A stretch of DNA of 64,000 nucleotides from Vitreimonas flagellata (GTDB taxonomy: Bacteria > Pseudomonadota > Alphaproteobacteria > Caulobacterales > Aquidulcibacteraceae), in contig NZ_SBJL01000001.1 in NCBI RefSeq assembly GCF_004634425.1, positions 655,001-719,000 of the forward strand, given 5' to 3'. A program made the position numbers and the translations under genes. Below are positions 37,856 through 56,259 of the stretch, in pieces (the first letter of the stretch is position 1; each line of letters begins with the position of its first letter). Below the pieces are notes generated by a model, which was given only the letters and a program-made list of their open reading frames with translations, searched no databases and had not been told where the DNA came from.

Positions 37856-38827
37856 TTAAACCAGCGCCTGCGGCTTGTTGCGCAGCCATTGCGACAGCAC
37901 CCATTTACGCCCGCGCGTCGGCGGCAAGCCGGCATGCAAACTACGCCGCTCCGGTTCGCCGCGCGCGTCCACATTTGCGAATAAGACGCAATCGCCTGGG
38001 CGTCCCTTTACCTTGAGGCCCAATTCCGGAAACGCGGTCTCGCCGCCATCGAAATCGTCGCTGAGATAGGTCACGCAGGTCAGCACGCGCTGCCCGAAAA
38101 GCGCGACTTCCTCGTCGAAATGTCCCGAGAGTGGGTCGAAGAAGTCGAAATGTGGCTCGAATTGTTGCCCCGGTAGGTAGCTGATCACATTCGGCGGCTC
38201 GTGCAGCGCCACCGGCACGCCCGTCACCATTTCTGCGCGCGCCTGGCAAAGCGCCACCACCACATCGCGTTCGAGGATTGGAAAGGCGGCGACCTTTGCG
38301 GTGCGCATCGGATGTTCATGCGTCTCACCGGTCATCGCGTCGTTGATCATGCCGCGGGCCAGCCGCCCCTGCGCGCGCCGTTTGAGCCAATTGGCGCAGC
38401 GCGTCGTCAAGAAGCCCTCCACCAGCAGCACGCGCGGCTCGTCCGAGACCACTTTCACGCGTGGCGGCGCAAACAAGAAGCGAATCTCGATCTCGTTGCG
38501 AAGCCGATGCCAAATGTTTCGGCCCGATGGATCGCGCGGGACGGCGCGGCGCCGCGGCGCCAAGACCGCCATCTGAAATTGTGCGGGCGCGTCCCCCAGC
38601 TGGGCGGCCAACGCCAACCAGTCGAGTGCGTCCGGCCAGTGCGGGGCGCCGCCCACGCCGACAGCGGTCAGCATTGCAAGTCGCGCAGCAGCAGCGCCAG
38701 CGCCTTTCTCGGCGGCGTCCTTGTAAAGCGCCGCGGCCAATTGCGGATCGGGGTCGCAATCAGTAGCGCCAACGAGAACGTTGTCGGCCTCGCGTACGCG
38801 CGCCTCCAGGCCCAGTGCCCGCACCAT
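37856..38827 (-). CDS. Prolyl 4-hydroxylase-like 2OG-Fe(II) dioxygenase with helical repeats
   Basis: The 323-residue product has an N-terminal Ala-rich helical part with Sel1-like character (ALYKDAAEKGAGAAAARLAM, DALDWLALAAQLGDAPAQ) and a C-terminal P4H domain with iron ligands H226 and D228 (EPHFDFFDP), distal H298 (RRSLHAGLPPTRG) and 2OG-binding K308. Acts on peptidyl proline by family. In another frame just upstream (38836-38886) the peptide VALMREAEPLFELGASG would continue naturally into this protein if one G were added to the GGGG near 38850, so the true start may have been lost to an indel. Confidence 0.82.
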   Translation of the reverse strand: MVRALGLEARVREADNVLVGATDCDPDPQLAAALYKDAAEKGAGAAAARLAMLTAVGVGGAPHWPDALDWLALAAQLGDAPAQFQMAVLAPRRRAVPRDPSGRNIWHRLRNEIEIRFLFAPPRVKVVSDEPRVLLVEGFLTTRCANWLKRRAQGRLARGMINDAMTGETHEHPMRTAKVAAFPILERDVVVALCQARAEMVTGVPVALHEPPNVISYLPGQQFEPHFDFFDPLSGHFDEEVALFGQRVLTCVTYLSDDFDGGETAFPELGLKVKGRPGDCVLFANVDARGEPERRSLHAGLPPTRGRKWVLSQWLRNKPQALV

Positions 38828-39050
38828 CTGAAATGCCCCGATGCGCCGAGCTCAAACAAAGGCTCGGCCTCCCGCATCAGGGCCACTCACGCAGTGACAA
38901 AGCTAATGTGAAACGATAATTACGCTTTCGCGTACGATGGCTGACCGGCCTTTTCGACAAGCGCCATTCGTCGTCGTGCGCGAGCGGTAAGTTGATGCAG
39001 GCACACGCGCCGAGCGTGTTGACCAAAGTTGGGATTGATCTAATCCGCAA

Positions 39051-39095
39051 TGGCGCGAGTGACGGGGCTCGAACCCGCGACCTCCGGCGTGACAG
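39051..39095 (-). other. Orphan 3' part of tRNA-Asp, att-site scar
   Basis: The minus strand holds the anticodon loop CTGTCAC (anticodon GTC), 3' anticodon stem GCCGG, variable AGGTC, T arm GCGGGTTCGAGCCCCGT, acceptor 3' strand CACTCGC, discriminator G and CCA of a tRNA-Asp. The 5' half is absent: upstream of the loop the sequence is CAGTC, which cannot pair. A 45-nt fragment starting at the anticodon loop is the classical product of site-specific integration at a tRNA 3' end, so this is probably the distal attachment site of the island to the right. Confidence 0.85.
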
Positions 39096-39126
39096 GACTG
39101 AAAAAACTGAACAAAATCAAGCACTG

Positions 39127-39215
39127 TTCCATCAAATGACCGAATTCTGGCGCCTATATAAATCAATGACTTAGCGCTAAGCGATGGAACGCTATTATGG
39201 GAAATTCCATCAAAT
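39127..39215. repeat. 11-bp direct repeat pair with central palindrome next to the att scar
   Basis: TTCCATCAAAT occurs at 39127-39137 and 39205-39215; between them the 10-bp perfect palindrome TTAGCGCTAA occupies 39171-39180. The interval is more AT-rich than its surroundings. Arm-type recombinase or excisionase sites would look like this, but no protein evidence supports it. Confidence 0.35.
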
Positions 39216-39319
39216 TGTGACGCCGTTTTTGGCGCCCAAAGTTGCCCTTCGTGGCCCCCCACACCCTTATGCGCATCGCGTGGAGCGAATACGGGACGCT
39301 TGCAACGGTCCTCGTCCCT

Positions 39320-39352
39320 ATTGCATGATATTTTAATAACGTTTCTTGCAAT
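39320..39352. promoter_or_regulatory. Possible AbiE operator/promoter
   Basis: Inverted hexamers ATTGCA (39320-39325) and TGCAAT (39347-39352) flank an AT-rich core TGATATTTTAATAACG just 38 bp before the antitoxin start. AbiEi antitoxins are known to autorepress by binding inverted repeats upstream of their operon, so this is a reasonable operator candidate. Confidence 0.35.
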
Positions 39353-39390
39353 GTGATGCGGCCTTACTATCTTCGCCGAGTAGGAAAAGC

Positions 39391-39987
39391 ATGTCCGCTC
39401 TGAACCCTCTCCGAAAGCACCTGCGTCCAGGTCAGGTCTACCGCCGCAAGGAGCTTGCGCGGTGGTCAAAGGCTGTCGATCGCCATCTGGCGCAGCTGGT
39501 CGAAGAAGGCCGGCTCGAGAAGGTGTCAGGCGGTCTTTATATGGTCCCGCGCGAAACGCGGTTTGGCAAAGCAGCCGCGGCGGATGAGGAGCTGGTCGGC
39601 GCCTTCCTCGGCGACGATCGCTATCTGCTCGTCTCACCCAATGCTTATAACGGTCTCGGGGTGGGTACGACGCAACTCTACAACGCGCCGGTCGTCTATA
39701 ATCGCAAGCGCCATGGCCGGCTCGACCTCGATGGGCGGCCTTATGAATTCCGGCGCCGGATGTCTTTCCCAAAGACGGTCAGCGCGGAATTCCTGTTGGT
39801 CGACCTCCTCCACAACCTCGACCGGTTGGCAGAAGACACCGACGCCGTTCGAGAGCGTGCGTTGGCGCGTGCTGCGGAGATGGACGCAACGCGTTTGTCG
39901 AAGGCTGTTCACGACTACGACTCCGCAAGGGTTCGTCGATTGCTTGCGCCGGTGCTCGAGGACGACAACGCAGGTCTCGCGGCATGA
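39391..39987 (+). CDS. AbiEi-type antitoxin (type IV toxin-antitoxin)
   Basis: The 198-residue product has an N-terminal winged-helix part (RPGQVYRRKELARWSKAVDRHLAQLVEEGRLEKVSGGLYMVP), as in AbiEi antitoxins, followed by the C-terminal domain with LVSPNAYNGLGVGTTQLYN and FPKTVSAEFLLVDLLHNLDRLAED. It starts MSALNPLRK with AGGAAAAGC upstream. Its stop overlaps the start of the toxin gene by 4 nt (ATGA). AbiEi represses the operon and counteracts AbiEii; the module gives abortive phage resistance and element maintenance in studied systems. Confidence 0.85.
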   Translation: MSALNPLRKHLRPGQVYRRKELARWSKAVDRHLAQLVEEGRLEKVSGGLYMVPRETRFGKAAAADEELVGAFLGDDRYLLVSPNAYNGLGVGTTQLYNAPVVYNRKRHGRLDLDGRPYEFRRRMSFPKTVSAEFLLVDLLHNLDRLAEDTDAVRERALARAAEMDATRLSKAVHDYDSARVRRLLAPVLEDDNAGLAA

Positions 39988-40922
39988 GACTTCTCCACGA
40001 GGAGCCGGACTTCGCCGATCTTTTGGCCGTCACCGGTCGGAGCCTCGGCACCGATCCAAGCCTCGTGGAGAAGGATTATTGGATCATGCATGCGCTTTGG
40101 GGTCTACAGCAGCTTGGCAGACGGTTTGAACTCAAGGGCGGGACATCGCTTTCCAAAGGCTACGGCATTATCGATCGCTTCTCTGAAGACATCGATATCC
40201 GTATCGAGCCGCCGGCAGACCTGCCCGTTGGGGCCAATCACGACAAAGAACACCATGCTGAGGCGCGACGCGCCTTCTATGACGGGTTGGCGCAATCCAT
40301 CGTCATCTCGGGGTTTGGCAAGGTCGAGCGCGACACTGCGTTCGATGACACACGCTATCGAAGCGGCGGCGTGCGGCTCCTCTACCAAAGCGCTTTCCCA
40401 CTGCCCGCGGGCATCAAACAAGGCGTGCTGCTAGAAGCCGGGTTCGATCAGGTAGCGCCCAATCGTCCGCGTGACATTTCATCATGGGCCTACGACGCTG
40501 CGTCGCGTGCCGGCGTCACCGACATCATTGATAACAGAGCCCTGGGCGTCCCCTGCTACGAGCCAGGCTACACGCTCGTTGAAAAGCTGCAGACGATTTC
40601 CACCAAGCACCGCCAACACCAAGCGACTGGGAAGATGCCGCAGAACTTCATGCGGCACTATTATGACGTCTATTGCTTGCTAGCCGATCGCGACGTGCAA
40701 AGTTTCATCGGGACCGCACTCTATGTGGCGCACAAAGCCAAACGATTTCCAGCTGCGGATAATCAGGACATTGCCGCCAATGATGCGTTCGTGCTCTCCG
40801 ACACCTCGATCCGAAGCGCGTACGAGGCCGCTTACGTTTCGACCTCAGCGCTGTATTTCCGTGGGCAACCGACTTTTGGCGAGCTGCTTGAACGGATTCA
40901 TCGCGATGCGCCTCGCCTATAA
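39984..40922 (+). CDS. AbiEii/AbiGii-type nucleotidyltransferase toxin
   Basis: The 312-residue product carries the nucleotidyltransferase motif RFELKGGTSLSKGYGIIDRFSEDIDIRI (GGTSLSK ... SEDIDI), the hallmark of AbiEii/AbiGii toxins, and later TLVEKLQTISTKHRQHQ and FMRHYYDVYCLLAD, also family motifs. Such toxins transfer nucleotides to tRNA or other targets and halt growth. It forms a translationally coupled pair with the upstream antitoxin. Both genes appear intact. Confidence 0.88.
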   Translation: MRLLHEEPDFADLLAVTGRSLGTDPSLVEKDYWIMHALWGLQQLGRRFELKGGTSLSKGYGIIDRFSEDIDIRIEPPADLPVGANHDKEHHAEARRAFYDGLAQSIVISGFGKVERDTAFDDTRYRSGGVRLLYQSAFPLPAGIKQGVLLEAGFDQVAPNRPRDISSWAYDAASRAGVTDIIDNRALGVPCYEPGYTLVEKLQTISTKHRQHQATGKMPQNFMRHYYDVYCLLADRDVQSFIGTALYVAHKAKRFPAADNQDIAANDAFVLSDTSIRSAYEAAYVSTSALYFRGQPTFGELLERIHRDAPRL

Positions 40923-41093
40923 GCGCGGGACTTAGCGCTTGCGTTTCTTGAGCGCGAACAACTGGCGCCCGGCGATCGCCCGTGATGATGCGGCGCCCAC
41001 CTGAGGCTGCCGTCGCGCGTGTTTCATGTGGAACGTATGCGGAACGATCTCGCGCCAGCGCACCCTGCGGCTGGATCATTCGCTGTCATTGGG

Positions 41094-41318
41094 TCAGGCG
41101 TAGGCGATCGTCTCGAGCGCTGAAGTCGCATCACCACGAGAAGTGTAGCGCCCGACAAGCGCGCCCGGACCAGCGAGCGCCTTCGGCCGGAACATGTGGA
41201 ATTTCTTGTCGCCGCCTTTGACCAGCTGAAAGACGCGGCCATTGAGGCGGCAATAGAGACCGCGATGCGCGTCTCGGCCATTGGCTCGATCGATGAAACC
41301 GGTCGAGGACTTGCGCAT
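41094..41318 (-). CDS. Small hypothetical protein
   Basis: A 74-residue product starting MRKSSTGFIDRANGRDAHRG. Codon use is clean (mostly G/C at third positions, TAC for Tyr, ATC for Ile), which supports translation. It contains RLNGRVFQLVKGGDKKFHMFRPKAL. No family recognised and no membrane segment. The flanks 40923-41093 and 41319-41468 show no supported gene. Confidence 0.5.
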   Translation of the reverse strand: MRKSSTGFIDRANGRDAHRGLYCRLNGRVFQLVKGGDKKFHMFRPKALAGPGALVGRYTSRGDATSALETIAYA

Positions 41319-41468
41319 TTTGGACCGCAACCTAGACTTTCAACGCCTCAAAGCGGTCGAAGTCTGCACAACGGGGCGGGTTCCGGGGGGGATCGCATGG
41401 CTAGGTCGACCTGGGCTGCGAGCGCTTACGCTCACGCTTTGATTTCAACGCAGCGCCGATAACGCGCG

Positions 41469-44400
41469 ATGTCCGATCTCCATCGCAAGCACGCCATAGC
41501 CAAACTTTCCGTGCGTAGTCCGTTCGTGCGCGAGTTCGAACAACGGGCCCAAGGATCGAAGGTGGAGCCCAGCGACGACGAGATTGTGCACATCCTTCGC
41601 TGCATTATCGTGACAGCGCCAAATGCACGCTTGACCACCGTCGAGGGCCTCGGCCGCGCAATGTTCACCCAATATGATGTGGCGCGCGCTTGGCCCGTCA
41701 AACGCGGCGGCAAAATCATCAACGCCAGTACCATCTGCAGCGTGATCAAAGGCAAGCAGAAGATCCCGGATTACCAATTGCTGCATCGCGGCTTGCTGAT
41801 CGAAGCGGCCGTGGCGTTGAAATACAAAACTGAAGACGCCCCCGCTTTAATGGCGGCGATCCGCACGCCGCAATCTTCGCTGAAAGAATGCGTCAACGCC
41901 GCGTTTTTCTTTGGCACCGACACCGATGTTCCGCTTCGACCCTTGATCGCTTCGCCGCTTTCATTGCCGGCTTATTGGGAGGGGCGCGACGACGATACGC
42001 CAGCACCGCCGGCAAAATTGTTGGCCGAACGGGTCCGCACCGCGCTGCGTGATGACGCCGAACGCATCTTCTACATTCATGGCGCGCCCTTCTCGGCCAA
42101 GCGGGAAATCCTCAAATCTGTCGTGCGCGGTCTGGAAGACGGATTCCTCGTGCGCTCGGATCGAAAACGCATGCCTGCTCTGGCGCTCGCCGCCGAAGCG
42201 GTCAGCACCAAAGTGTTCGTCGATCGTGTTTTTCAGTTCTTCGCCGCAAACATTCCAGCCGCCGATACGCTGCGCGAGAGCCTCGACACTGACGGCAAGA
42301 TCGCCTTCATCCGTGCAAGCGCCAAAGCGACACCGGTGCTGTTTATCGTGGCCGATATCGAGCCGTTCGACGCTGACGCCATGATCCGGCGCCTGCGCGG
42401 TGATCGCATCGGCGACGTTCTGCAAGCCGTCATCGAGGGGCATCCCGACACACGCGTTGTGATTGCCGGAGGTGAGAACGTACACCCGCCCAATGGGGAA
42501 AGCCTGCCGACCGCGTTCTGGCGCACGGCGGCCGTTCCTATCCAAGTGCACGCCTCGCCCGACGAATATTTGCGCGCGCTGCAGATTCTTGGCCCCACGC
42601 TCACCAAGCGATTTGCCCGCCACGTCTCAGCGGAGCTTGCCTCTCCCGACACGCCGGGCGCGAACGACTTTCTTCTCGACGCTTTGACGATGCGCTTGGC
42701 TATCGGCATTTTTGAACAGAGCAAGCCCGGTAAGCTCGCGGTCGAAGCCGGTCGGTTGAGCGCTGCCCTACGCAACAATTCCGCCCAAGACGTTTTCGAT
42801 TGCGCCTGGGAGGCTTTGCTGACCCCCATGGATCGGTTGGCGTTCGGCTTAATTGCTGCAAGCCATGACGGACTGCGCTGTTCCACCTTCGTGCGGCTGC
42901 TGACCGCAATGCGCGCGCTGGATTCCACGACAGCTATGCATGACGCGATCGACGCGTTCGATTGCAGTCCTGCTGCCTTGACCGCATGGGCGCGCCGCCA
43001 CGGCTCGTTTGTGCGGGTGCGCGACGACGACGCCGAGGACCCCTCGGTCTATTTCCGCGACCAGATCCGTCGTCTCGTCTTGAAGACCTGGATGCGTGAA
43101 GATGCCAATCAAGCACGCGATGGTTTCTGGTGTATCGCCCGCGAAGCGCTGGACCAGGCGCATCAGCACCAATTCAGCGGCGGCGGCGACGCTGAAGACA
43201 CCGCGTTCGGCCGCTATTTGCAGGCATTGCACGCCCTGCTGTCCTCCATCGACCCAGCGGGCCTCGCACACGCACCGCCATCGGCCGCGCCGGGTCCTGC
43301 GTTCGCGATATTACCCCCACTCGACTCACCGGCGACGCAACGCCCTTGCCCGCGCACGTCCTATCAGTACGCATGGGCCGAACTCTATTGTCACGAATTG
43401 CGCGGCGGCGGGCGCGCCATTGACGAACGTTATGGCGGACCCGCGACGCAATTGGCGGCGCTGCTTGTTTTCCTGACACCGGACAAACCCTGGGCGGCGT
43501 TTGAAACAAGCGACACCTGGTTCAGCGAACCGCTTTATCCCCAAGGCATGCCGGTGGCCGCCATTGTATTGCGTCCGCCGCACCAATTGGCGCTGCTCAC
43601 CGAGATCGCGGTCGCGGCGTTGCGCGCGCAGCGGTTTGCGCTGCTGTTAAATATTCTCAAACTGGCTGAAGGCTTGCCGCGCGATACGCTGCAACGCGCC
43701 GATTGGGTTCGCCTCCAGCGCATACGCTTGACGTTAAGTCTGCTGCATTGCGGCGATCCCGCGATCAAGGCGCGCACACTGCGCAGAAGCGAGGAGAAAC
43801 TTCCCGACGAGGTTAAGCGCTACAAGCTGGAATGGGCGGAAAGCCTTGCGCAATCTTTGCTGAACGATTTGAGCGGCCGCGATGATGTGGATTCGATCAT
43901 CGCGCGCGGAAAGCTCAATATGCGCATCGGCGAAATCCGTCACTGGCTCGGCAGGCGCGGCGGCGCGGGTTTGGCCTATATGGAAGGGTATCGGGCTGAA
44001 CGCGCGTTGGGCGGCGACGGCGGTATCGATGCGTTGAAAGTAACGCCCGGGCGCGGCATCCGTACCGCAGTGCGGTATCTGCTTTCGCGCAGTCCCACAC
44101 CCTATGAAGTGCTAGAGTTTGAAGACAAACTCGCCTGGCCTGCGCTCGGGGCCACACATGACGACGCAACACTCCGGCTGGTGCGCAGCTTCGCGGAAAT
44201 CAACAAACGACGGGCGCGCGGCGGGGCGGTGCGCGATCGACTCTTGGCCAAACTCGACGACGCACGCATCCTTTTGCACACCGGCAAATATTCCGCAGCC
44301 TGCGCCGCGGTCGCCATCGCCGAAAAACTCGCCGAACAAGGCGGCGCCGCGTTCGAAACCGTGCTCGAACTCGATGAATTGCGGCTGGCGGTGTTGATCG

Positions 44401-44726
44401 AACAGGCGATGCGCGACACCCACGCACAAATTATGGATGCCGAGCGCGCGACTCAGATGCGCCTCGCCATCGAAACCGCGCTGCAGCACCTGCGTAAGCT
44501 GGCGCATACCCCACTCGCGGAATGCATCCTGCTCAGCGCTGAGACCAACGCGTACATTGCTTTCAGCCGCCTCTTTGCACCGGTTTCGCCGGAATCACGC
44601 CAGCACTTGGTAAACGCCCACGAGCGCCTCCTTGAGGCGATTGACGCTACGAACGAGCATGGCGTCCTGCTCTTGGCGCCGCGTCTGGCGCTGATGAAAA
44701 CTGGTCTTGAATCAATCCTCGACTGA
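41469..44726 (+). CDS. Large STAND-like protein with degenerate P-loop, unknown function
   Basis: The 1085-residue product has no family I can name. Residues 1-150 form a helical domain (DDEIVHILRCIIVTAPNARLT, TICSVIKGKQKIPDYQLLHR) that might bind DNA or a partner. Residues 190-340 look like a P-loop NTPase: ERIFYIHGAPFSAKREILKSVV is in Walker A position but has A-K-R instead of G-K-S/T (K211 is the only retained core residue), and TPVLFIVADIEPFD is a Walker B-like strand; HPDTRVVIAGGEN resembles the STAND sensor strand. The remainder, about 700 residues, is helical and rich in Leu/Ala/Arg, like TPR or other superhelical repeats. This architecture fits STAND-type sensors. It heads a run of unrecognised plus-strand genes (45058-49157). 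Confidence 0.6.
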   Translation: MSDLHRKHAIAKLSVRSPFVREFEQRAQGSKVEPSDDEIVHILRCIIVTAPNARLTTVEGLGRAMFTQYDVARAWPVKRGGKIINASTICSVIKGKQKIPDYQLLHRGLLIEAAVALKYKTEDAPALMAAIRTPQSSLKECVNAAFFFGTDTDVPLRPLIASPLSLPAYWEGRDDDTPAPPAKLLAERVRTALRDDAERIFYIHGAPFSAKREILKSVVRGLEDGFLVRSDRKRMPALALAAEAVSTKVFVDRVFQFFAANIPAADTLRESLDTDGKIAFIRASAKATPVLFIVADIEPFDADAMIRRLRGDRIGDVLQAVIEGHPDTRVVIAGGENVHPPNGESLPTAFWRTAAVPIQVHASPDEYLRALQILGPTLTKRFARHVSAELASPDTPGANDFLLDALTMRLAIGIFEQSKPGKLAVEAGRLSAALRNNSAQDVFDCAWEALLTPMDRLAFGLIAASHDGLRCSTFVRLLTAMRALDSTTAMHDAIDAFDCSPAALTAWARRHGSFVRVRDDDAEDPSVYFRDQIRRLVLKTWMREDANQARDGFWCIAREALDQAHQHQFSGGGDAEDTAFGRYLQALHALLSSIDPAGLAHAPPSAAPGPAFAILPPLDSPATQRPCPRTSYQYAWAELYCHELRGGGRAIDERYGGPATQLAALLVFLTPDKPWAAFETSDTWFSEPLYPQGMPVAAIVLRPPHQLALLTEIAVAALRAQRFALLLNILKLAEGLPRDTLQRADWVRLQRIRLTLSLLHCGDPAIKARTLRRSEEKLPDEVKRYKLEWAESLAQSLLNDLSGRDDVDSIIARGKLNMRIGEIRHWLGRRGGAGLAYMEGYRAERALGGDGGIDALKVTPGRGIRTAVRYLLSRSPTPYEVLEFEDKLAWPALGATHDDATLRLVRSFAEINKRRARGGAVRDRLLAKLDDARILLHTGKYSAACAAVAIAEKLAEQGGAAFETVLELDELRLAVLIEQAMRDTHAQIMDAERATQMRLAIETALQHLRKLAHTPLAECILLSAETNAYIAFSRLFAPVSPESRQHLVNAHERLLEAIDATNEHGVLLLAPRLALMKTGLESILD

Positions 44727-45057
44727 GACGTTGCGCCCGATTTTCCCCGGATTCACGCGCGTGCGTCTGCGCTTTGCAAACGGCGCACACGCTTGCGCAC
44801 GACAGCGAAACGACCGCGATTTTCGATAAGCGCGATTTCAAAATGATCTGATCGACGGCGCGCGTTTGCGCCCGCGCAGAAATCCGACGCCTTCCGAGCG
44901 GTGCGCTTTTCAAATGCGCGCAACGCGTCTCAGACTGCCTCCATCGTCAACAACAATGCGAGGATGCCTTCAATGAACCTGCACCTGACAACAGCGCTCG
45001 ATCTCGCGCTTCGGCTTGCACTCGTACTGGCACAGGACACCCTGTCGGGAGGCTCAC
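44727..45057 (+). other. 331-bp gap with one possible leader peptide
   Basis: No standard gene. A small frame at 44973-45074 encodes 33 residues (MNLHLTTALDLALRLALVLA then QDTLSGGSHDGVS), preceded by GAGGATGCC as a possible ribosome binding site and overlapping the next gene start by 17 nt. It is hydrophobic in the middle and may be a leader peptide or chance. Upstream of it the interval (44727-44972) shows nothing convincing. Confidence 0.3.
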
Positions 45058-46026
45058 ATGACGGCGTATCGTGATATCGTCAGCGCATCGACTGACGATG
45101 ACCAATTCCAAATCCTGCATCACCGCAAAAGCCTCGCGCTCATCGAGGACGGTGAACAGGTTCGCGCTTATCTGCGCGCGATCGAGCGCACGTTTAAGAC
45201 TTACGCACCCGAGGGCGCCGCGAAGCTGAAGCTCCTGGCGCAAGTGCGCCGCGACGACCGTGAAATCATCAAAGGCGCCAGCGTGCTGTTCACGCCAGAA
45301 TCCGCACCAGGGCGCCTGTTGGCGCTGACCGTCGTGTTGAACGGAGTCAGCAAGCACGAGCGCACCGCTTTTCACGGCCGCACGGTCGGGCAGGACAAAG
45401 CGCGCGGCGTGCTCGGCGTACGCCGCCCCATCGCCGACGATGTGCAAAACCGCGTGCGCATGAAGCGGATCAAATTCGTCGGCGGCGACCTTTATCTCGA
45501 ATTGCTCGACGCCACCGCTGGCGAAACGCCATATCTTTATACGGGCGATGAATGGCGCGATACCACCGCCGGCGTAATTGTGCCCAAACCGATGGCGCCG
45601 CGCGCGACGGCGACAAAGGCCGAACGCGCCTCGACAACGCCAACGCCCGCAAATGACAGTGGTCTAGCGGCGACGCTCTCAGATCGCGCGTTGCGCACCG
45701 CGAGCGCTGCACTTCTCTCGGTGCTCGCGTCGACCATGAGTGAGGCCGCGGAAGCCAACGCTGCGCCTGCGGAGGAGCCGACGACGACAGATTTCGTCGG
45801 CGGCGAGCTGGCGCCGGTGGATCCCGCCAAGGAGATCACCGTGCTCTCGCCGCTCGACCAGAGCGCAAACCTCTCGCAGCCGCGCGAGTTCAGCCGCCAT
45901 GAAGTGCAGCTCGACGTCTCCGCCGAGGTGTCGAAATGGCTGAAGCCATTTTTGGGCTCGTTCGACGTTTCGCTGAAGGGGTCATCCGCGCGCTATCGCG
46001 AAGGTCTTGATCCCAAGGAGGAATAG
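45058..46026 (+). CDS. Hypothetical protein with two-domain layout, STAND cluster
   Basis: A 322-residue product starting MTAYRDIVSASTDDD with GGGAGG as ribosome binding site. The N-terminal 170 residues look globular (YLRAIERTFKTYAPEGAAKLKLLAQ, GRLLALTVVLNGVSKHER); residues of about 180-255 are an Ala/Thr/Pro-rich linker that includes a mildly hydrophobic stretch (ASAALLSVLASTMSEAAEA); the C-terminal 65 residues end in LKPFLGSFDVSLKGSSARYREGLD. No family recognised. It follows the STAND-like gene on the same strand and ends at a strong hairpin. Confidence 0.55.
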   Translation: MTAYRDIVSASTDDDQFQILHHRKSLALIEDGEQVRAYLRAIERTFKTYAPEGAAKLKLLAQVRRDDREIIKGASVLFTPESAPGRLLALTVVLNGVSKHERTAFHGRTVGQDKARGVLGVRRPIADDVQNRVRMKRIKFVGGDLYLELLDATAGETPYLYTGDEWRDTTAGVIVPKPMAPRATATKAERASTTPTPANDSGLAATLSDRALRTASAALLSVLASTMSEAAEANAAPAEEPTTTDFVGGELAPVDPAKEITVLSPLDQSANLSQPREFSRHEVQLDVSAEVSKWLKPFLGSFDVSLKGSSARYREGLDPKEE

Positions 46027-46032
46027 TCCGTC

Positions 46033-46066
46033 ATCCGCGTCGCGCGCTAAGGCGCGCGGCGCGGAT
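46033..46066 (+). terminator. Strong hairpin after the 45058-46026 gene
   Basis: ATCCGCGTCGCGCGC and GCGCGCGGCGCGGAT form a 15-bp stem (one G-U pair in RNA) with a 4-nt loop TAAG, starting 7 nt after the stop codon. There is no T-run behind it, so it may act as a processing or Rho-associated signal rather than a full intrinsic terminator. Confidence 0.45.
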
Positions 46067-46195
46067 CGTCTCAACCTCGATCACTGGCGCCCGCCCTACC
46101 GACAATTTTTTTGCGTCGCCTTCAAGCAGCAGCTTTGGGGCGCGTCCTTGGGGTGGTGAGGGCTCTCGGCGGTCACGCTAAAATGGAATAGTGCG

Positions 46196-46987
46196 ATGGG
46201 TTCATCGTCAGATAAAATCAATGCGGCGCTCGCGAAGGCGCTCCGTAACGTCCCGGGCGAGGCGTTGCGCACCATGATTCTCCATCCGGAGTTTCAGACA
46301 ATTCTGCACGATCCCCGACGCGGGATACCTGCAGGGCCCGTATCGGAAGACGTCGCTTTTGGCTGCTGGGCGACGGTCGTCGCCTTCGCCTACACTTATC
46401 TAGGCGACTCCAACACAATGTGCGGCAATGACCCGGCCGAGCGCTACGCTATCGCCGCGCAAATCGGCGAGACCTTTCTCGAACGCCGTTTCCCCGGTAT
46501 GAATTTGGCGGCGCCGTTCGCACCAGATTCCCTGCTGGGGTATTTGCGGACGTCCGGATATCGCGGCGTAAAGTCCGCAGGCAGAAAAGCCGTCGCCGCA
46601 AAAAAATACCAAGACGCCGCAGCACAAGAAGCCGATATCGCCGCGAAGGCAGAAGACCGATACCCGCCACAGGTGCGCCACACCGAAGAACGCGAATTGT
46701 CCTTTACGGACGTTCAGGGGCTTTTGACTTCCATCGACATCTCCGACCGTCCAGACGCCGCAGCACTCGCGGATCTGTGGCGTCTAGAAGGATCGCAGAG
46801 CGTCCGCATCGAACGCGATACGCTGCGCAATCACCCCACCTTCTCCGACCGCGACCCGCCGCTCTCCGATTCAGACGTAGAGACGCTGCGGGCGCTGCTG
46901 GTGCGCCGCCTAAAGGCCCGCCACAGCTCTCAACTTAAATCCGCGCTTATGACCGCGCCGACGCCCTTAAACAGCAAATCCGAATGA
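46196..46987 (+). CDS. Hypothetical protein, STAND cluster
   Basis: A 263-residue, mainly helical product starting MGSSSDKINAALAKALRNVPGEAL. The N-terminal half contains SEDVAFGCWATVVAFAYTYLGD and RYAIAAQIGETFLERRFPGMN; the middle is an Ala/Lys-rich coil (SAGRKAVAAKKYQDAAAQEADIAAKAED). No family recognised. It is 10 nt from the next gene, so those two are one transcript, probably with 48468-49157. Confidence 0.55.
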   Translation: MGSSSDKINAALAKALRNVPGEALRTMILHPEFQTILHDPRRGIPAGPVSEDVAFGCWATVVAFAYTYLGDSNTMCGNDPAERYAIAAQIGETFLERRFPGMNLAAPFAPDSLLGYLRTSGYRGVKSAGRKAVAAKKYQDAAAQEADIAAKAEDRYPPQVRHTEERELSFTDVQGLLTSIDISDRPDAAALADLWRLEGSQSVRIERDTLRNHPTFSDRDPPLSDSDVETLRALLVRRLKARHSSQLKSALMTAPTPLNSKSE

Positions 46988-46997
46988 AGAGCACATC

Positions 46998-48374
46998 ATG
47001 AGCAAGAACCCTATCGACGACTTCGTCGACGGACTGCGGCGACACGCAGAAGCCGGCAAGGATCCTCATTTTCTCGACAAAGATGCCCCCCCTGAAGCGC
47101 CCGATGAAGAGATCGCCGCCCAATTGGACGACGCGCTGACGCTGTTTGAGAGCACGTCCGGCGTCGACGATGCGCGCATCTGCGCGGACGCTGCAAATGC
47201 GATTGCGCGCGCGCGCTCGCGGGCGCCGCGCGCAGCCGTGAAGCCTGAGCCGCAGCCGGCGTGCGCGCTGGCGATGCATCTGACGGCGGAGAACGATCTC
47301 GTCGTGGTGCCGATGCCGTCGACCGACGCGCCGCGCGTCAGGACCGCGCCTTCGGCAGCGTCGCGTGTCGCTTATGCGTCGTATGCGAGCACGCCGAAGA
47401 CACGGTTCTTTGTCTATCGCTACGATCACATTGCCGATTACGATCAATTGGCGACATTCTTCGCGCGCGCCCAGGATCGCGACAGCGCCTCTATCAACAT
47501 GGCGTTGCTGCGCCGCGCCTCCTGCCCCCGCGCCATCATCGTCACCAAACTCGATCCGCTCGGCCGGGCCACCATCCACGGGGCGAGCGTCGTGGGCGAC
47601 CTGGTCGACAATTTCGAGGGCATGGGACTTGTGGCGCCGTTCGTGTCGTCGCGCCGACTTGACATGCAGGCCCGCACGCGGGCGATCGAATTGATCGCAC
47701 GCGCCGATTTCTATTCCGAGAAAAAATCGGTCTTCTATATCGCCGATGGCGCTGCACGCACCGATAGTCTGGCGCTTCAGGCCTCCGGCGCCCGTCGCAC
47801 CTTTCCTTCCAGTCCTTGGCTACAATTTCTGCTGCCGCTCTCGTGCGAGCCCGCCTTCTATCAATTGCGTTCGCGCACGCCGCTCGGTGAATTGCCGGGT
47901 CTGGCTAACCTCTCGCCCCTGCCCAGCACCATCGACGCGTGCCAAGCGCTTTGGTCGAGCGACAAGAGTCGGCGCACTCCTAAATCCTTTTCCTTGTTCA
48001 ACCTGCTGCAATTGAGCGTCCATCGCAGCTATTGCATGGACACGGGCGCGTTGGCCGCACGCGACATGGTCCAGAATCTTGCTCTCTTCCCAACGCTCGC
48101 CGGCGACGACGAGCAATGGACGCCTGCCTTCGGACCATTGCTGCGCCTCAGCCAAGCGGCGGCGGCGCAATGTGTGAACGACAACATTCCCGAAGAAGGT
48201 GCAATCTGGACCTCGATGCGTCTGCGTAAACTCAGCGACGCGGTCGCGGCGTGGGAAGCGCGCACGCCAACGGCGCCGATCTCTGCGCTAGAGAACGCAC
48301 CTGTGTTCGGCTTCGGCTTCGAAGAAGGCGGCGCGCACGCGCAATTGCCGCGTGAAGTCATCGCAATCGCTTAA
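46998..48374 (+). CDS. Hypothetical protein, STAND cluster
   Basis: A 458-residue product starting MSKNPIDDFVDGLRRHAEAGKD. The N-terminal 100 residues are acidic and helical; a globular part follows with KTRFFVYRYDHIADYDQLATFF and SCPRAIIVTKLDPLGRATIHGASVVGDLVDNFEGMGLVAP. No catalytic motif I recognise. The next gene starts 93 nt downstream on the same strand. Confidence 0.55.
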   Translation: MSKNPIDDFVDGLRRHAEAGKDPHFLDKDAPPEAPDEEIAAQLDDALTLFESTSGVDDARICADAANAIARARSRAPRAAVKPEPQPACALAMHLTAENDLVVVPMPSTDAPRVRTAPSAASRVAYASYASTPKTRFFVYRYDHIADYDQLATFFARAQDRDSASINMALLRRASCPRAIIVTKLDPLGRATIHGASVVGDLVDNFEGMGLVAPFVSSRRLDMQARTRAIELIARADFYSEKKSVFYIADGAARTDSLALQASGARRTFPSSPWLQFLLPLSCEPAFYQLRSRTPLGELPGLANLSPLPSTIDACQALWSSDKSRRTPKSFSLFNLLQLSVHRSYCMDTGALAARDMVQNLALFPTLAGDDEQWTPAFGPLLRLSQAAAAQCVNDNIPEEGAIWTSMRLRKLSDAVAAWEARTPTAPISALENAPVFGFGFEEGGAHAQLPREVIAIA

Positions 48375-48467
48375 AGTGAAATAATCTCATCGTGAGCTTC
48401 AAGCACCTGCGTCGCCGTGCGTCTCTTTTTCAAACGCGGCGCAGACCGCTTGGCTTGGAGAGACGAG

Positions 48468-49157
48468 ATGAACGCTTTGGTGCCGGTGTCCGCCGTGAAG
48501 AACGGATACCGCTTTGACTATATCGACAATGCGCGCGCCGATCTGGAAACCCGCCTGCACATCGAGCGTCGCCTTGACCGCGACGTGCGCGCGGACGCCA
48601 GCTGGAACGCGTTCTTTGGCGACTATCCTGTCTCCGCGTTTGCGCTCACGCACTTTAAGTTGGGTGGCGATCGGCTGACGACAAGCCGGAAGGCAACCAT
48701 GCTGATCGCAGAAATCAGCGAGGGCATCTATGTCCTCGGACCGCCCGTCTTGGCGTCGGATGCGCCCGCCACCTATGTGCGCGCGATGCGCTGCCAAGTC
48801 GCGCACGCCCTCGCCAATCTGGGCGCCACAATCATCATCGCGGTGATGGCGCCGGGTCGGATCGATGACGACCTCTTTTTGCGCAAGAGCGGCCGCTTCT
48901 TCGAGGATCACGCCATTGATCAGGCATTGATGGACGCCGCAGGCGCCGCTTTCATGCATGTGCACCTGGACATGCCCGAACGCGGCTTGTTGGTGGCGCG
49001 CTATGACATCGCGCGCGCCTATCAACCGGTGCGCAGCCCGCCGCCGCCTTCATCGGCGGGCATACGCCTCGAGCGCTTCGGTTTCCGTGGTCGGGTCCGC
49101 GCGCCAGGCAACGTCATCGACGGCGAAGGTTACGCCGATTGGGCGCGCAAGGATTGA
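48468..49157 (+). CDS. Hypothetical protein, STAND cluster
   Basis: A 229-residue product starting MNALVPVSAVKNGYRFDYID with GGAGAGACGAG upstream of the ATG. It contains SRKATMLIAEISEGIYVLGPP, ALANLGATIIIAVMAPGRIDDD and AAGAAFMHVHLDMPERGLLV, a pattern of alternating strands and helices, so a small alpha/beta fold is likely. No family recognised. It closes the plus-strand run that begins with the STAND-like gene; an opposite-strand small gene overlaps its end by 28 nt. Confidence 0.55.
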   Translation: MNALVPVSAVKNGYRFDYIDNARADLETRLHIERRLDRDVRADASWNAFFGDYPVSAFALTHFKLGGDRLTTSRKATMLIAEISEGIYVLGPPVLASDAPATYVRAMRCQVAHALANLGATIIIAVMAPGRIDDDLFLRKSGRFFEDHAIDQALMDAAGAAFMHVHLDMPERGLLVARYDIARAYQPVRSPPPPSSAGIRLERFGFRGRVRAPGNVIDGEGYADWARKD

Positions 49158-49354
49158 ACGGGATATGGCCTTCGGCTGCCCTCAGTGACGACGTCGTCGA
49201 TGAGGCGAGCGGCTTCGATCATCAACCGCTTCGAGCTTGGCAAGACTTCGAAGTGAGGGCGACGACTCTTGCTGCCACACATGAGACCGAGACCCGTCAT
49301 TTCAAGCCGGTGTAAAGCCGACAACGCGCCTCGTCGAATGAGGGTAGATGCCAT
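49130..49354 (-). CDS. Small hypothetical protein
   Basis: A 74-residue product (MASTLIRRGALSALHRLEMT at the start, SSKRLMIEAARLIDDVVTEG in the second half). Codon use is acceptable but not strongly biased. Convergent overlap of 28 nt with the 48468-49157 gene. It might be a small regulator or chance. Confidence 0.3.
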   Translation of the reverse strand: MASTLIRRGALSALHRLEMTGLGLMCGSKSRRPHFEVLPSSKRLMIEAARLIDDVVTEGSRRPYPVQSLRAQSA

Positions 49355-49401
49355 TTCTCCGTCGTTGCGACCTCGTCGTCGACGGCGCCAAGCTTAGGAT
49401 T

Positions 49402-50241
49402 TCATGACGCGACGTCGCGCGGCGCCACCAACGGGTTCCAAGATTCCGTCTGGTGACGACGGATGCGCTGCTCACGGCGCAGCTCCTGCTGATCGGGCGG
49501 ATCGTCGTTGGCCCATCGCAGAAGAAGTTCTTGGTCGGCGATCACATACTCAAACGGCAGACCGTAGACGTAATGCATGTAGAGAATGGCGCGGGCGATA
49601 TCGCCGCGCGCGCTGTCGGCCGGCTCGACATAGGTTTCCTCATCGATGCGGCCGCGTTCGAAATCATCGCAGATGTCGGAATAGTTCGGATTGGTCGTGC
49701 CCTCACCGTCGAGCTCGGCGTAAGCAAGGTTACTGCGGCTCTGGTTCATCGGCGCGTAGGCTGGAAAGAGATTGTAGAGATCTGCGGCCGCCGCCTTGCA
49801 AAGGCCAGCGTCAGTGTCCGCTGCCGCGACGCCCGGCGTCGGCGTGCGGCAGGAGCGATTTGTATAGCCGAAATGGTCGGCGATGCTGTCGGCCGGGTAG
49901 ACGTGCTCCAGCTGCATTTCGACGTCGTTGGTCATCTGCACAGCGGCTTCGGCGCCGGTGAAACGCGCGCGGCAATAGAGTTCGACGCCGCCGCCGCTAT
50001 AGACCTCAAGCCAAAGCGTCTCGCGCACGCGCGTATTGTATTGCGTGAATTCCTGCTGCGGCGCTGGCCAATCCATGCCGTCGAGGCGCGCCCAGGTGAG
50101 ACGCGGCCGCGTCGTCATCATGCGATCGCCGGCCGGCGCCGACATAGTAACGGCTTGCGATGGGGATGTGGATGAAGTCGCCGGCGCTGAGGCGCACGCA
50201 GCAAGCGTGACGCACATAAGCGAGAACAATGCGCGATGCAT
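49402..50241 (-). CDS. Lipoprotein endonuclease I-family nuclease
   Basis: A 279-residue product with a lipobox (SLMCVTLAACAS, C16 the likely lipidation site) and the EndA/NucM endonuclease I fold: LEHVYPADSIADHFG (His113 in the position of the catalytic His), ADLYNLFPAYAPMNQSRSNLAYAEL with the conserved Asn residues, GDIARAILYMHYVYGLP and LLRWANDDPPDQQELRREQRIRRHQTESWNP. Family members are non-specific periplasmic or secreted nucleases. Anchoring by lipid would place it in the envelope, where it could degrade incoming DNA. It is divergent from the patatin gene. The start at MHRALF was chosen because of the lipobox. Confidence 0.85.
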   Translation of the reverse strand: MHRALFSLMCVTLAACASAPATSSTSPSQAVTMSAPAGDRMMTTRPRLTWARLDGMDWPAPQQEFTQYNTRVRETLWLEVYSGGGVELYCRARFTGAEAAVQMTNDVEMQLEHVYPADSIADHFGYTNRSCRTPTPGVAAADTDAGLCKAAAADLYNLFPAYAPMNQSRSNLAYAELDGEGTTNPNYSDICDDFERGRIDEETYVEPADSARGDIARAILYMHYVYGLPFEYVIADQELLLRWANDDPPDQQELRREQRIRRHQTESWNPLVAPRDVAS

Positions 50242-50455
50242 GATCGATCCTCCCGGTTTTTTCGCTAGCATATCTCCAGTTGCAGCGCTATCCACAAGCT
50301 GGGGAGTCACGAAAGACTTTCGGCACGTCGATGCGCCGGCGGCGCGTGTGAATTCACGCGGCGCGCATCGAGGCGACCGGCCAGCATCATGCGGCACGCC
50401 ATGCGTCAGAACATCGAACGGCGCTTCACAATAATTGAGCGCCGAAGGAGCGCTC

Positions 50456-52162
50456 ATGACTTATTCCGCAGAGGCGATCCTCGCCGCGAAAGAGACTTGC
50501 GATCTCGTGATGAAGGGCGGAGTTACCTCGGGCGTCGTCTATCCGCGCGCGATCGTGAAGCTTGCGCACCGCTATCGCTTTCAATCGATCGGCGGCGCGT
50601 CGGCCGGCGCGATCGCTGCGGCCTTCACCGCCGCTGCCGAATATGCGCGGGTCGCGCGCGGCGACGCCGGCGGCTTTCTGCGCCTAGCCGAACGCGCCGA
50701 GGCGCTCCCTGCTCTTCTTGAGGACCTGTTTCAGCCGACGCCCGCGCTGAAGCCGTTGCTCAAATTACTGAAAACCGCGACGAGCCGCGGGTCGACGCTC
50801 GATCTGATCGGCGGCGTGTTCAACGCCTTTCCGGCCTCGATCCCGCTGGGTGCGGCGGCGATTGGCGGCGCGTTCTTTCTGTTCGGCGGTCCCATCGGCG
50901 CTGTCGTCGGCGCACTCCTTGGCGCGGTCGCGGGCCCGGGCGTGCAGATCACACAAAAGATGCTGACGGCACTTGAGAAGAATGATTACGGCATTTGCCG
51001 AGGCCTGCGCACGCCAGGGTCGGACAAACCGGCGCTGACGGAATGGATTCACGAGAGCCTGCAATACATTGCGTTCGGCCAAGAGAAACACGCGCCGCTG
51101 ACGTTCGGCGATCTTGAGAACGCCGCAGGCGAAGGCAAGCGCGGCGTAAAGTTGCGAATGGTGACGACCAATCTCTCGCTGCGGCGACCTCACTTTTTGC
51201 CCTATTTCGGCAGCGTCAAGATCGGTTTCAAACTGGACGAGTGGAAGAATTACTTTCCCGCCGACGTGATCGCCGCGCTCGCTGAAACAACGCCTGGGCC
51301 TCTGCATACATCAGCGCCCGACGTGCTCGACATGGTAGGACCGAAGAATCTGCCGGTGGTGGTCGCCACGCGGATGAGTCTCAGCTTTCCCGTGCTGCTC
51401 TGCACCCTGCCCGTCTACGCGATCGATTATGCCGAGAAGGAAAAGAGCGCAGCACTGGGCTTGGCGGCAAAACCCTTGCGCGTGCGTCGCTGCTTACTGA
51501 GCGATGGCGGCGTCTGCAGCAATTTCCCGATCCATTTCTTCGACCAATCGCTGCCGCAGCGCCCGACTTTTGCCATCAGTCTCGATCCGCTGCCCGACGA
51601 CATGAAGGATGCGCCGCGACGCGCCTACATGCCGGCCACCGCCGATGAGGGAAACGCGCTGCCGGTCTGGGAGTTCAAGGGGCTCGGCGGCTTCGCCATG
51701 GCGCTGCTCAATTCAGCAAAGGATTGGCAAGACACATTACAATCGTCGCTGCCCGGCTACCGCGATCGGATCGTGCGCGTCGCTTTGCTTGAAAGCGAAG
51801 GCGGCTTGAACCTCGCCATGGCGCCGGCGACAGTCGCTAAACTTCTGAAATATGGCGAGGAAGCCGCTGACGCGATCGACAGCACCTTCGTGCTGCGTGA
51901 ACATCAATGGCGACGCATGATGGCGTCGTACCAGGCCTTGTCCGACTTTGCCGACGGTGCCGACAAGGCCTGGGAGCACCTCCGCCCGCTCATGATCAGC
52001 TATGAGACCGAAGCCAAAAGCTATCAGCGACTGAAGCCCTATTTTGTCGATGTCGTTCGCGGCTACGATGCCGTAGCGGCGGCCAATAAATTGTTTCCAA
52101 CAAAGCCGCCGCGCTCGCTCTCGCCGCGACCACTCGTGCGGCTGCGGATTCAAATCGACTGA
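50456..52162 (+). CDS. Patatin-like phospholipase with central hydrophobic segment
   Basis: The 568-residue product starts MTYSAEAILAAKETCDLVMKGG, with AAGGAG before the ATG. The patatin elements are all present: KGGVTSGVVYPRAI (oxyanion-hole Gly-rich loop), the nucleophile elbow SIGGASAGAI (Ser49 in GxSxG) and LLSDGGVCSNFP (Asp350 of the catalytic dyad). Residues of about 128-162 are strongly hydrophobic (SIPLGAAAIGGAFFLFGG) and probably insert into membrane. Patatins hydrolyse phospholipids; some are effectors in anti-phage systems, though nothing here proves that use. Two genes follow on the same strand. Confidence 0.85.
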   Translation: MTYSAEAILAAKETCDLVMKGGVTSGVVYPRAIVKLAHRYRFQSIGGASAGAIAAAFTAAAEYARVARGDAGGFLRLAERAEALPALLEDLFQPTPALKPLLKLLKTATSRGSTLDLIGGVFNAFPASIPLGAAAIGGAFFLFGGPIGAVVGALLGAVAGPGVQITQKMLTALEKNDYGICRGLRTPGSDKPALTEWIHESLQYIAFGQEKHAPLTFGDLENAAGEGKRGVKLRMVTTNLSLRRPHFLPYFGSVKIGFKLDEWKNYFPADVIAALAETTPGPLHTSAPDVLDMVGPKNLPVVVATRMSLSFPVLLCTLPVYAIDYAEKEKSAALGLAAKPLRVRRCLLSDGGVCSNFPIHFFDQSLPQRPTFAISLDPLPDDMKDAPRRAYMPATADEGNALPVWEFKGLGGFAMALLNSAKDWQDTLQSSLPGYRDRIVRVALLESEGGLNLAMAPATVAKLLKYGEEAADAIDSTFVLREHQWRRMMASYQALSDFADGADKAWEHLRPLMISYETEAKSYQRLKPYFVDVVRGYDAVAAANKLFPTKPPRSLSPRPLVRLRIQID

Positions 52163-52260
52163 GCTTGATGTCGTACGCATTACACTTGCGCGCGCGGCGA
52201 TAGGACTTGTCGAGACGCGCTATCTAGGGTTGACTTGACCGCTTAGCGTGCGGGAGGGGC

Positions 52261-52599
52261 ATGACGATGGCGAAAACGATTGGCTCGTTCGAAACGATCG
52301 CTGCGGTGCAAGCAGCCTTTGCTCAAGAGCTCGATAGCCTCGGGAAGAAATACAAACCGTCCGGCAAGTGGGACAAAGCTTACGGCTTTCAGAGTTCGCG
52401 GCTGTTGGGGACGTTTCTCGGCGCAGTTGCGGTGCGATTGCGCCAGACCTTCAAGCCGCACGCCAACAAACTCAAACTTGAGCCTGACTCCAGTGAACTC
52501 GCCAGCCTCTATGCGCAAACCGCCGACCAGACGGTTTTCTGGGCGCACTCGGCCCTGAACAAGGTTCTTTCGGTGAACACCAATGCCAAGGTCGTTTAA
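52261..52599 (+). CDS. Small hypothetical protein between patatin and barrel genes
   Basis: A 112-residue product starting MTMAKTIGSFETIAAVQAAFAQ, likely all helical. The start could be the Met at 52267 (MAKTIGSF), which would give the GGAGGGG ribosome binding site better spacing. No family recognised. It overlaps the following gene by 17 nt, so the two are translated together. Confidence 0.55.
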   Translation: MTMAKTIGSFETIAAVQAAFAQELDSLGKKYKPSGKWDKAYGFQSSRLLGTFLGAVAVRLRQTFKPHANKLKLEPDSSELASLYAQTADQTVFWAHSALNKVLSVNTNAKVV

Positions 52600-53899
52600 A
52601 CTCAGTGCCGCGGCCCTATGCGCCGCGTTCGTCACCTCCCCTGCGTTCGCGCAAGGGATCCAGGAGCACATCCCGGAAGAGGCGTGCGCGGCCGGCGGCC
52701 AAGTGCCGCTTGAACTCGTGTTCGAGCATGCCTTGCAGGCCCACGAGGTCATCTTGCTTCAGTCGGAGCGGCAGAATCTGGCCCGGTTCGGGGAAAATTC
52801 AGTTGCGCTCGTGCGCGACAATCCCACGGCCGAGGGGCTTGAAGGCCAAGCGCTTGCGCGTTGGCGTCTTGCGTTCTCGGCAACCGCTTTCATCATCAAC
52901 AGTGCTGAAGACGGCGCCGAGGATTCCGAGCGGACCCATGTGGTCGTGGATCGAAGCGCGCCCGCTAGCCGCGAGGCGCGCGTGCGCGGGTTTCTCTCGC
53001 TCGACGCCAATTGGCTGCACGTGGTCTGCGCGCCGCCGGAGACGCCGGTCGCGCCCGTAAGCGACACACCCGTGCGTCAGCGCCAAGTCAATCCCGCGAT
53101 CACCTATCTCGGGCGCATTCAGATCGCCCGCGATCTCGAAGGCGCGCAAGCCGATGCGCGGAGCGATCGTTCGTTCGCGACTTTGTCAGGGCGCGACGAC
53201 CGTGAGACAGGCGAGCAGACAGCTTCTTTTGAAGGTGTGGCGCTTCTGCCGACGATCTCGCGTCCCTTCGGCAATGCGGAGCTGCGCCCCTATCTCGGCT
53301 ATCATCGCACGCACTCGTCGACGTCAGACAAGGAAATCAATGATCTCAGTTTTGGCGGTTTGCTCTCGTTTTACGAACAGACCCCCAACGCAAGCGCGCT
53401 ATTACCTGACGGGCATTTCTTCGACGCGTCTTTTGATTGGGAGACCGACGACGGTTTTGAGTCCAGCGTGACGACGGCCGAACTCACCTACAACCCGATC
53501 TGGCTTGGCCGCTATGGCAACGAGTTTCGCATTCAAGGGTGCCTCGGCGGCGAGTGCTCGTGGGATTTGACGTTCGTCGCCGACTTCGCCGAAGTGGGCG
53601 ATCCAGGGGCGAAGACCGCCCTGCTCGACATGGATCAATACGGGCGCATCGGCGGCAATCTCGAACTCGGCTATTATATTCGAACGCCGGTCGGTGTGAT
53701 TTCGCTCACTGGCGATTATCGCGTGCGCGACGCCTTCACCGAGGATGGCGGCGACGCTGATCGCTTGGTGGCGGAGCTTGCGCTCACGCCAAGCGACACC
53801 GGACGCTTCAAGATCGGTCTGGAATATGTCACTGGCGAAGATCTGACGAGCTTCGAGGTGGAGGATTACACCGCGCTCGCCATCGGCTTTCGCAACTGA
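52583..53899 (+). CDS. Putative outer-membrane beta-barrel protein
   Basis: A 438-residue product with a signal peptide (MPRSFKLSAAALCAAFVTSPAFAQ). The first half is soluble, acidic and unrecognised. From about residue 185 alternating aromatic strands dominate: TYLGRIQIARDLEG, LRPYLGYHRTHSS, ELTYNPIWLGRYGNEFRIQG, RIGGNLELGYYIRTPVG, and the C terminus ends in YTALAIGFRN, a barrel-like last strand. Probably an outer-membrane protein. The two genes upstream (patatin and 112-residue protein) run in the same direction. Confidence 0.55.
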   Translation: MPRSFKLSAAALCAAFVTSPAFAQGIQEHIPEEACAAGGQVPLELVFEHALQAHEVILLQSERQNLARFGENSVALVRDNPTAEGLEGQALARWRLAFSATAFIINSAEDGAEDSERTHVVVDRSAPASREARVRGFLSLDANWLHVVCAPPETPVAPVSDTPVRQRQVNPAITYLGRIQIARDLEGAQADARSDRSFATLSGRDDRETGEQTASFEGVALLPTISRPFGNAELRPYLGYHRTHSSTSDKEINDLSFGGLLSFYEQTPNASALLPDGHFFDASFDWETDDGFESSVTTAELTYNPIWLGRYGNEFRIQGCLGGECSWDLTFVADFAEVGDPGAKTALLDMDQYGRIGGNLELGYYIRTPVGVISLTGDYRVRDAFTEDGGDADRLVAELALTPSDTGRFKIGLEYVTGEDLTSFEVEDYTALAIGFRN

Positions 53900-55440: not shown

Positions 55441-56259
55441 ATGCGGGCATGGCCTTTGGTGGCGGTTGTACTGGTCGCAGCCGGCGTTTGGTATTTCTGG
55501 CAGAGCAAGAGCGACACGGCCGGTGCTCCGCCGATCTCCCTCGCGTCTAATGAGACCGATTCTGCGGGCGTCGGAGAAACCGGCGTCAACGCTTTACCGA
55601 TGGCGGACGCGCGCAGCATTAGCGCCATGCGTTCACTTTACCCCGACGCCGATGCAACAACCGGCGTTCTCATCGGTCCCGGACGGCGCGGGGAGTTCGG
55701 CGCCGCCGGTCCGATCCCGCAGACCGCGCCACTCTTTGTTATTGGCGGCGTGGATACCCCTATCCTGATCACAGCGACAACCTCGGATGACGCCGCGCAT
55801 GCCGAAAGCGGGTTTCTGTCGGCCTTTTATCTCAGACCCGCAGCAGCCGGCGGTTACGATCTCATCTCCGCGCACCCCGACTTCGGCGGCCACGGAGAGT
55901 ATGGACGCAGCGGCGAGGCTGAATTGATTACATTGCACGGAGAGCCCGCCCTACTCAGCCGGTACAGCGGCGGCGGGATGGGCTGCATCGTCGAACTTGC
56001 GCAGATCTATACGTTCGGCCCCACCGGCCCAAGAGAGATATTGGCGCGCGAGTTCGTGTCCTACCGGAACGACGGCATCGGCGGCGAAGGCGACGAAGTT
56101 GTCGGTATCGTTATCGATCCGCCGGCCGGGTACGACATGGCTATCCGATTCACTGGGAGCTTCCTCGGTGATCGTATCGACGACACTGTGCTCTATCAGA
56201 TGCAGTCGGGAAGTCTCGCACCTGTGAGAGGCGAGAACCCTCTCGCGGGCGGCTGTTAG
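55441..56259 (+). CDS. Hypothetical protein with N-terminal membrane anchor
   Basis: A 272-residue product starting MRAWPLVAVVLVAAGVWYFWQ, with AGGAGGG upstream of the ATG. It is anchored by its N terminus and has a periplasmic domain of beta-rich character (FVIGGVDTPILITATTSDD, GGMGCIVELAQIYTFGP). No family recognised. Its stop codon shares bases with the stop of the convergent TIR gene (TTAG), so the two transcripts overlap. 55188-55440 upstream has no supported gene. Confidence 0.6.
   Translation: MRAWPLVAVVLVAAGVWYFWQSKSDTAGAPPISLASNETDSAGVGETGVNALPMADARSISAMRSLYPDADATTGVLIGPGRRGEFGAAGPIPQTAPLFVIGGVDTPILITATTSDDAAHAESGFLSAFYLRPAAAGGYDLISAHPDFGGHGEYGRSGEAELITLHGEPALLSRYSGGGMGCIVELAQIYTFGPTGPREILAREFVSYRNDGIGGEGDEVVGIVIDPPAGYDMAIRFTGSFLGDRIDDTVLYQMQSGSLAPVRGENPLAGGC

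Follow-up and report, generated by a model that had tools for sequence, protein, structure and literature searches.

What are five adjacent genes of no recognised family doing near one end of a mobile element, and do they work as one system? The question is raised by a stretch of 64,000 nucleotides (nt) from Vitreimonas flagellata (assembly GCF_004634425.1, contig NZ_SBJL01000001.1, positions 655,001 to 719,000), which we call the window and number from its first letter. Five plus-strand open reading frames (ORFs), here named P1 to P5 in order, occupy 41469-49157. A first-pass annotation had taken them for a candidate undescribed system, in which a large STAND-like protein is followed by four proteins of unrecognised kind. 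What is new here is the finding that an integrative conjugative-type element carries P1-P5 as variable cargo. They are good candidates for a defence system not yet described; membership in a known one is not supported.

P1-P5 are real, open, coding-biased genes. P1 (41469..44726, 1085 residues) probably contains a degenerate STAND NTPase at approximately residues 158-440, and its C-terminal half has no assigned fold. No family is assigned to the other four: P2 (45058..46026, 322 residues), the second half of which has an Ala-rich stretch; P3 (46196..46987, 263 residues); P4 (46998..48374, 458 residues); and P5 (48468..49157, 229 residues). Lengths and strand are those of the first-pass annotation. 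Mechanically called ORFs start further upstream for P2 (45016) and P5 (48417). GGGAGG just 5' of 45058 and GGAGA just 5' of 48468 look, by eye, like ribosome-binding sites, and the shorter annotated starts are therefore supported. Scored against the trusted genes of the window, the codon log-likelihood is positive for all five (P1, 213.7; P2, 75.5; P3, 23.0; P4, 97.0; P5, 73.6, with P2 and P5 taken from the longer mechanical starts), and the lowest score per codon, 0.088, is that of P3. The genes are separated by gaps of 331 nt (P1/P2), 169 nt (P2/P3), 10 nt (P3/P4, the distance first reported) and 93 nt (P4/P5). This spacing suggests that P1 and P2 are transcribed singly and that P3 opens a likely three-gene operon, P3-P4-P5 (46196-49157). 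A scan of the region for promoters and terminators gave a signal no higher than that of shuffled sequences, Rfam has no match in 38500-52500, and no sequence is shared among the five proteins (E >= 0.58 in the phmmer pairs listed).

The genes lie on what its gene content and ends identify as an integrative conjugative-type element inserted in tRNA-Asp and putatively able to excise and transfer. The left end, attL, is a 47-bp stretch identical to the tRNA-Asp 3' end (39050-39096, minus strand); the same 47 bp recur at attR inside a full tRNA-Asp gene at the equivalent of 104778-104824, beyond the window. This direct repeat at tRNA-Asp, as expected of an integrative conjugative element, encloses 65.7 kb, and the P1 start is 2.4 kb from attL. 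In relatives nuoA is followed by a core block, which here picks up at contig position 760597, ~68 kb on. A nuoD match occurs in 27 other genomes, and flanking sequence was fetched for 20 of them. In 19 of these 20 the tRNA-Asp beside nuoA is full-length, with 0-2 mismatches (same orientation in 17, opposite in 2); some of the 19 have other insertions after nuoA, of a few kb to ~10 kb. The element also carries the relaxase and type IV secretion set expected of such elements: TrbI, VirB8, TrbL/VirB6, TrbE/VirB4, a VirB11-type ATPase and VirD4, along with a relaxase match at E 3.2e-4 (21.4 bits, with the cut-off at 24.6). A 439-residue integrase-like gene ends in tRNA-Asp; its Phage_integrase match (E 0.063) is below cut-off and it has no PHROG match at 0.001. 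ArdC and a LuxR-type regulator are further element genes. A prophage reading of the cluster was considered and rejected: P1-P4 have no PHROGs row at E <= 1, the best row of P5 is at E 0.24, and the element that carries them has conjugation-type genes.

The twentieth fetched relative, G182, has the same truncated tRNA-Asp copy and shows that the interior can change while the ends stay. It shares the left end as far as 39211, together with 40996-41205, and, at 88% identity, a 6.3-kb stretch over the right end; ~4.2 kb of this stretch falls within the element and includes its relaxase and integrase-like genes. Following the left end, G182 has caspase-, TIR- and STAND-like genes, identified by eye (the STAND also by hmmsearch), in place of AbiE and P1-P5; neither P4 nor P1 has a match in G182. 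The P1-P5 cluster is therefore exchangeable cargo. The G182 insertion at this tRNA-Asp site is itself longer than 100 kb.

What the five proteins are has been harder to say. At E <= 1 none has a confident match in Pfam, NCBIfam, PADLOC or PHROGs, in keeping with the first-pass remark that no family was recognised, and for PADLOC the count is 0 families, so that P1-P5 match none of its defence systems. The best sub-threshold rows (P1 in Pfam, E 0.068; P2 in NCBIfam, E 0.1; P5 in PHROGs, E 0.24) all fall well short of the cut-off where the library states one. Pfam applied to nine pieces at E <= 10 likewise gave no confident match; a HAMP-domain model came closest, at E 0.098. A sequence search of the PDB, made with P1 and P4, returned a nucleocapsid protein at E 0.61 as the best row for P1 and nothing for P4. 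AlphaFold2 single-sequence models reach a predicted local distance difference test (pLDDT) score of 38.9 for P1 and 39.0 for P5.

Relatives are as scarce as families. By tblastn, 72,556 plasmids contain no match for any of P1-P5, and P1 and P4, the two queried there, have none in 50,697 phage records. Pattern scans, which use short exact peptides and so reach close relatives only, found none of P1-P5 in viral contigs and neither P1 nor P4 (again the two queried) in genome contigs. Among whole genomes, P4 is found in 1 of 200 of the order, its own; P1 in 1 of 60 family genomes and in 2 of 385 from the class, where the additional row is a 77-residue stretch (E 0.0096) with one stop; P3 in 1 of 150; P5 in 2 of 150, the second a 66-residue stretch with four stops; and P2 in 6 of 150, five of these as weak partial rows (E 8.3e-4 to 0.009; 6 rows, mostly in the Ala-rich part). 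Outside their own genome the weak P1, P2 and P5 rows are all partial and, except for L008, all contain stops. A joined query, with at most two candidates scored per genome, gave 5 of 385 genomes, of which four have weak rows only (E 5.8e-4 to 0.0033); two of these four rows were read, L067 being by eye a long repeat/outer-membrane-like protein and L069 a ParA-like protein. A full-length relative of P1-P5 was thus not found in the plasmids, viral contigs and sampled genomes. Judged by title, the literature searched includes no paper on the cluster, which is weak evidence, since there is no name to search by. The first-pass annotation had named independently occurring homologs, or housekeeping families for the small proteins, as what would speak against it; the sets searched yielded neither.

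The one assignment that can be argued is that of P1, which is probably a degenerate STAND NTPase, judging by a weak co-linear alignment. A profile was built from nine nSTAND1 domains of the order, and hhalign aligns P1 residues 158-596 with it (score 29.6, P 0.011, probability 3.7%). The alignment pairs GRD, GAPFSAKR and RVVIAGG of P1 with the GRE, GPSGCGKS and VVITMR stretches of the profile and places FIVADIEPF on the Walker B strand, its Asp (D296) being one column off. GAPFSAKR (residues 205-212) is the P-loop-like stretch; it is not an intact Walker A (GxxxxGK[ST]), for it retains the lysine, K211, and has lost the second glycine and the Ser/Thr to other residues. When 52 proteins from the region are ranked by hhalign against nSTAND1, P1 comes seventh, and the six above it (the SMC-type ATPase, the STAND-WD40 protein, VirB11, VirB4 and two dynamins) are all P-loop NTPases by Pfam. 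The NACHT profile aligns with another part of P1, residues 641-791. The C-terminal half is helix-rich, as seen solely in the model of pLDDT 38.9, and has no Pfam match to repeat families (TPR, WD40).

STAND proteins are oligomerising sensors, and many defence systems have been found in the cargo zones of mobile elements. The explanation that we favour, tentatively, is that P1-P5 are accessory cargo of the tRNA-Asp integrative conjugative-type element, and that they are an uncharacterised defence or inter-element conflict locus with a STAND-like scaffold. P1 would be a STAND-type sensor or scaffold whose NTPase core has decayed; with a broken P-loop it would act as a scaffold, its C-terminal half binding the trigger or the partners. 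P3, P4 and P5 would be effector or adaptor proteins under P1 control, for which they are natural candidates because they resemble one operon and follow P1; P2 would be a separately transcribed partner or a bystander. That the five act together, and in these roles, we infer. A bolder version, in which P1 with P3-P5 (and perhaps P2) forms a new multi-gene defence system, its degenerate STAND scaffold sensing an invader and switching three effectors of undescribed folds, the whole spread by conjugative elements, strikes us as rather unlikely.

Several results weigh against the favoured explanation, some by way of the STAND assignment and some by way of the cluster as a unit. With filters off, hmmsearch matches P1 to neither STAND profile, and the same nSTAND1 test gives 12.4 bits for the STAND protein of this element and 59.6 bits for that of G182, the best shuffle reaching 5.6. 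The hhalign probability is as low as 3.7%, and the hhalign ranking is not clean, since VirD4, a known P-loop protein, falls below P1 (20.7). Pfam finds no STAND, TPR or helix-turn-helix family on the pieces at E <= 10, and a TPR consensus query scores no higher against P1 than against shuffles. For the STAND-like layout first proposed for P1 the statistical support is weak: an hhalign score equalled by one of 150 global and none of 150 block shuffles, hence above 299 of 300, makes it plausible, and the probability and hmmsearch do not bear it out. As to the unit, the gaps of 331 and 169 nt speak against a single operon of five, and the regions upstream of the five genes have in common only 4 shared 9-mers, a number equalled in 54 of 200 shuffles. 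No relatives having been found, neither co-occurrence nor selection can be demonstrated for P1-P5.

Of the competing explanations, the one to be taken most seriously, as a real possibility that still falls short of likely, is that P1, P2 and the P3-P5 operon were acquired separately and lie side by side in a cargo zone, so that the unit is P3-P4-P5 only. The long gaps on either side of P2, set against 10 and 93 nt within P3-P5, fit this well, as do the lack of sequence shared among the five and the patchwork of cargo in both orientations around them. It accounts less readily for five genes that all lack a known family and all lie on one strand, bracketed by AbiE and an endonuclease gene on the opposite strand.

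It is improbable, in our judgement, that the genes serve the element itself, in transfer regulation, exclusion of related elements or stability, with P1 as a STAND-type regulator. The proximity of P1 to attL on an element with conjugation-type genes speaks for it, and by eye P1 residues 84-101, INASTICSVIKGKQKIPD, look like a short XRE-like stretch; yet no helix-turn-helix family is matched at E <= 10, and the G182 element, which keeps both ends, relaxase/integrase end included, has other genes after the left one. That the cluster consists of remnant genes, fast-diverging and perhaps decaying cargo with no present function, is the least probable account: the lack of relatives in the sets searched, the degraded P-loop of P1 and the weak codon score of P3 suit it, and five frames that stay open across 0.7-3.3 kb, with coding bias in all, do not.

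The favoured explanation, of a defence or conflict locus, draws on surroundings that turn out to be a stronger case of an island than the first-pass annotation could see: the element is mobile and rich in defence-type genes. Beside attL lie the plus-strand AbiEi antitoxin (39346..39987, PADLOC E 1.1e-82) and AbiEii toxin (39984..40922, Pfam E 2.4e-29, PADLOC E 3.1e-69) genes. The downstream edge of the cluster is a minus-strand gene for an endonuclease I-like protein (49402..50457, Pfam E 9.2e-20). The plus-strand patatin-like phospholipase gene next to it (50435..52162, Pfam E 2.5e-12) is adjacent cargo for which cluster membership is not claimed; genes for 112- and 438-residue proteins without a family follow it on the same strand, and the three (50435-53899) may be a second small system. 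A minus-strand gene (56256-58292) encodes a protein with a ThsB-type TIR match, a weak WD40-like part and a low codon score. An LmuB-like (SMC-type) ATPase (E 1.3e-18), two LeoA-like dynamins (E 1.6e-18 and 1.2e-19) and a STAND-WD40 protein are also among the cargo.

Some of this cargo has features of its own. The SMC/LmuB-like gene is flanked by diverged direct repeats (58063-58847 and 62565-63349, 72-97% identical by block, spacing ~4500 nt), possibly a duplicated module. The two dynamins adjoin a TIR-FGE protein (L078:4949-10309, same element). Also on the element, a weak DndB/DpdB-like protein, a 443-residue protein without a family and an MT-A70 protein (L044:1048-3965 and L044:1-383) may form a DNA-modification locus. 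At the other end of the window, 1005-11904 on the minus strand holds ~20 tightly packed genes with, by eye, the layout of a gene transfer agent or prophage; three have no PHROG match at E 0.001.

The locus merits attention as a cargo zone that has five intact genes outside four family libraries beside defence-type genes. Because both element ends are known exactly and the tRNA is uninterrupted in relatives, the cluster can readily be delimited, moved or deleted for tests. A degenerate STAND, should P1 be one, would be a scaffold with possibly no need of nucleotide hydrolysis.

How does the cluster compare with what is known? With nSTAND1-type STAND NTPases (PF20703) P1 shares a weak co-linearity over residues 158-596, in which GRD, the P-loop and a sensor-like stretch line up and the Walker B Asp is displaced by one column; it differs in lying below Pfam/hmmsearch detection and in a P-loop without the second Gly and the Ser/Thr. 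In the iSTAND ternary conflict systems an inactive STAND is combined with MoxR and vWA proteins (Kaur et al. 2020, PMC7159879). P1-P5 resemble them in that an apparently inactive STAND has several other proteins close by and TIR genes occur at other places on the element, and differ in that the defining MoxR AAA+ and vWA partners are absent among the proteins scanned: Pfam finds no MoxR or vWA domain in proteins encoded beside P1-P5 or in the remaining scanned proteins of the element, some small ORFs being outside the scan. On the proteins scanned, the cluster thus does not qualify as an iSTAND ternary system, although its working principle may be similar. With defence hotspots and defence-carrying genomic islands (PMC10250203, PMC12629846) the element has in common that it is a mobile or exchangeable island with defence-type cargo, and it stands apart in that part of this cargo belongs to no described family.

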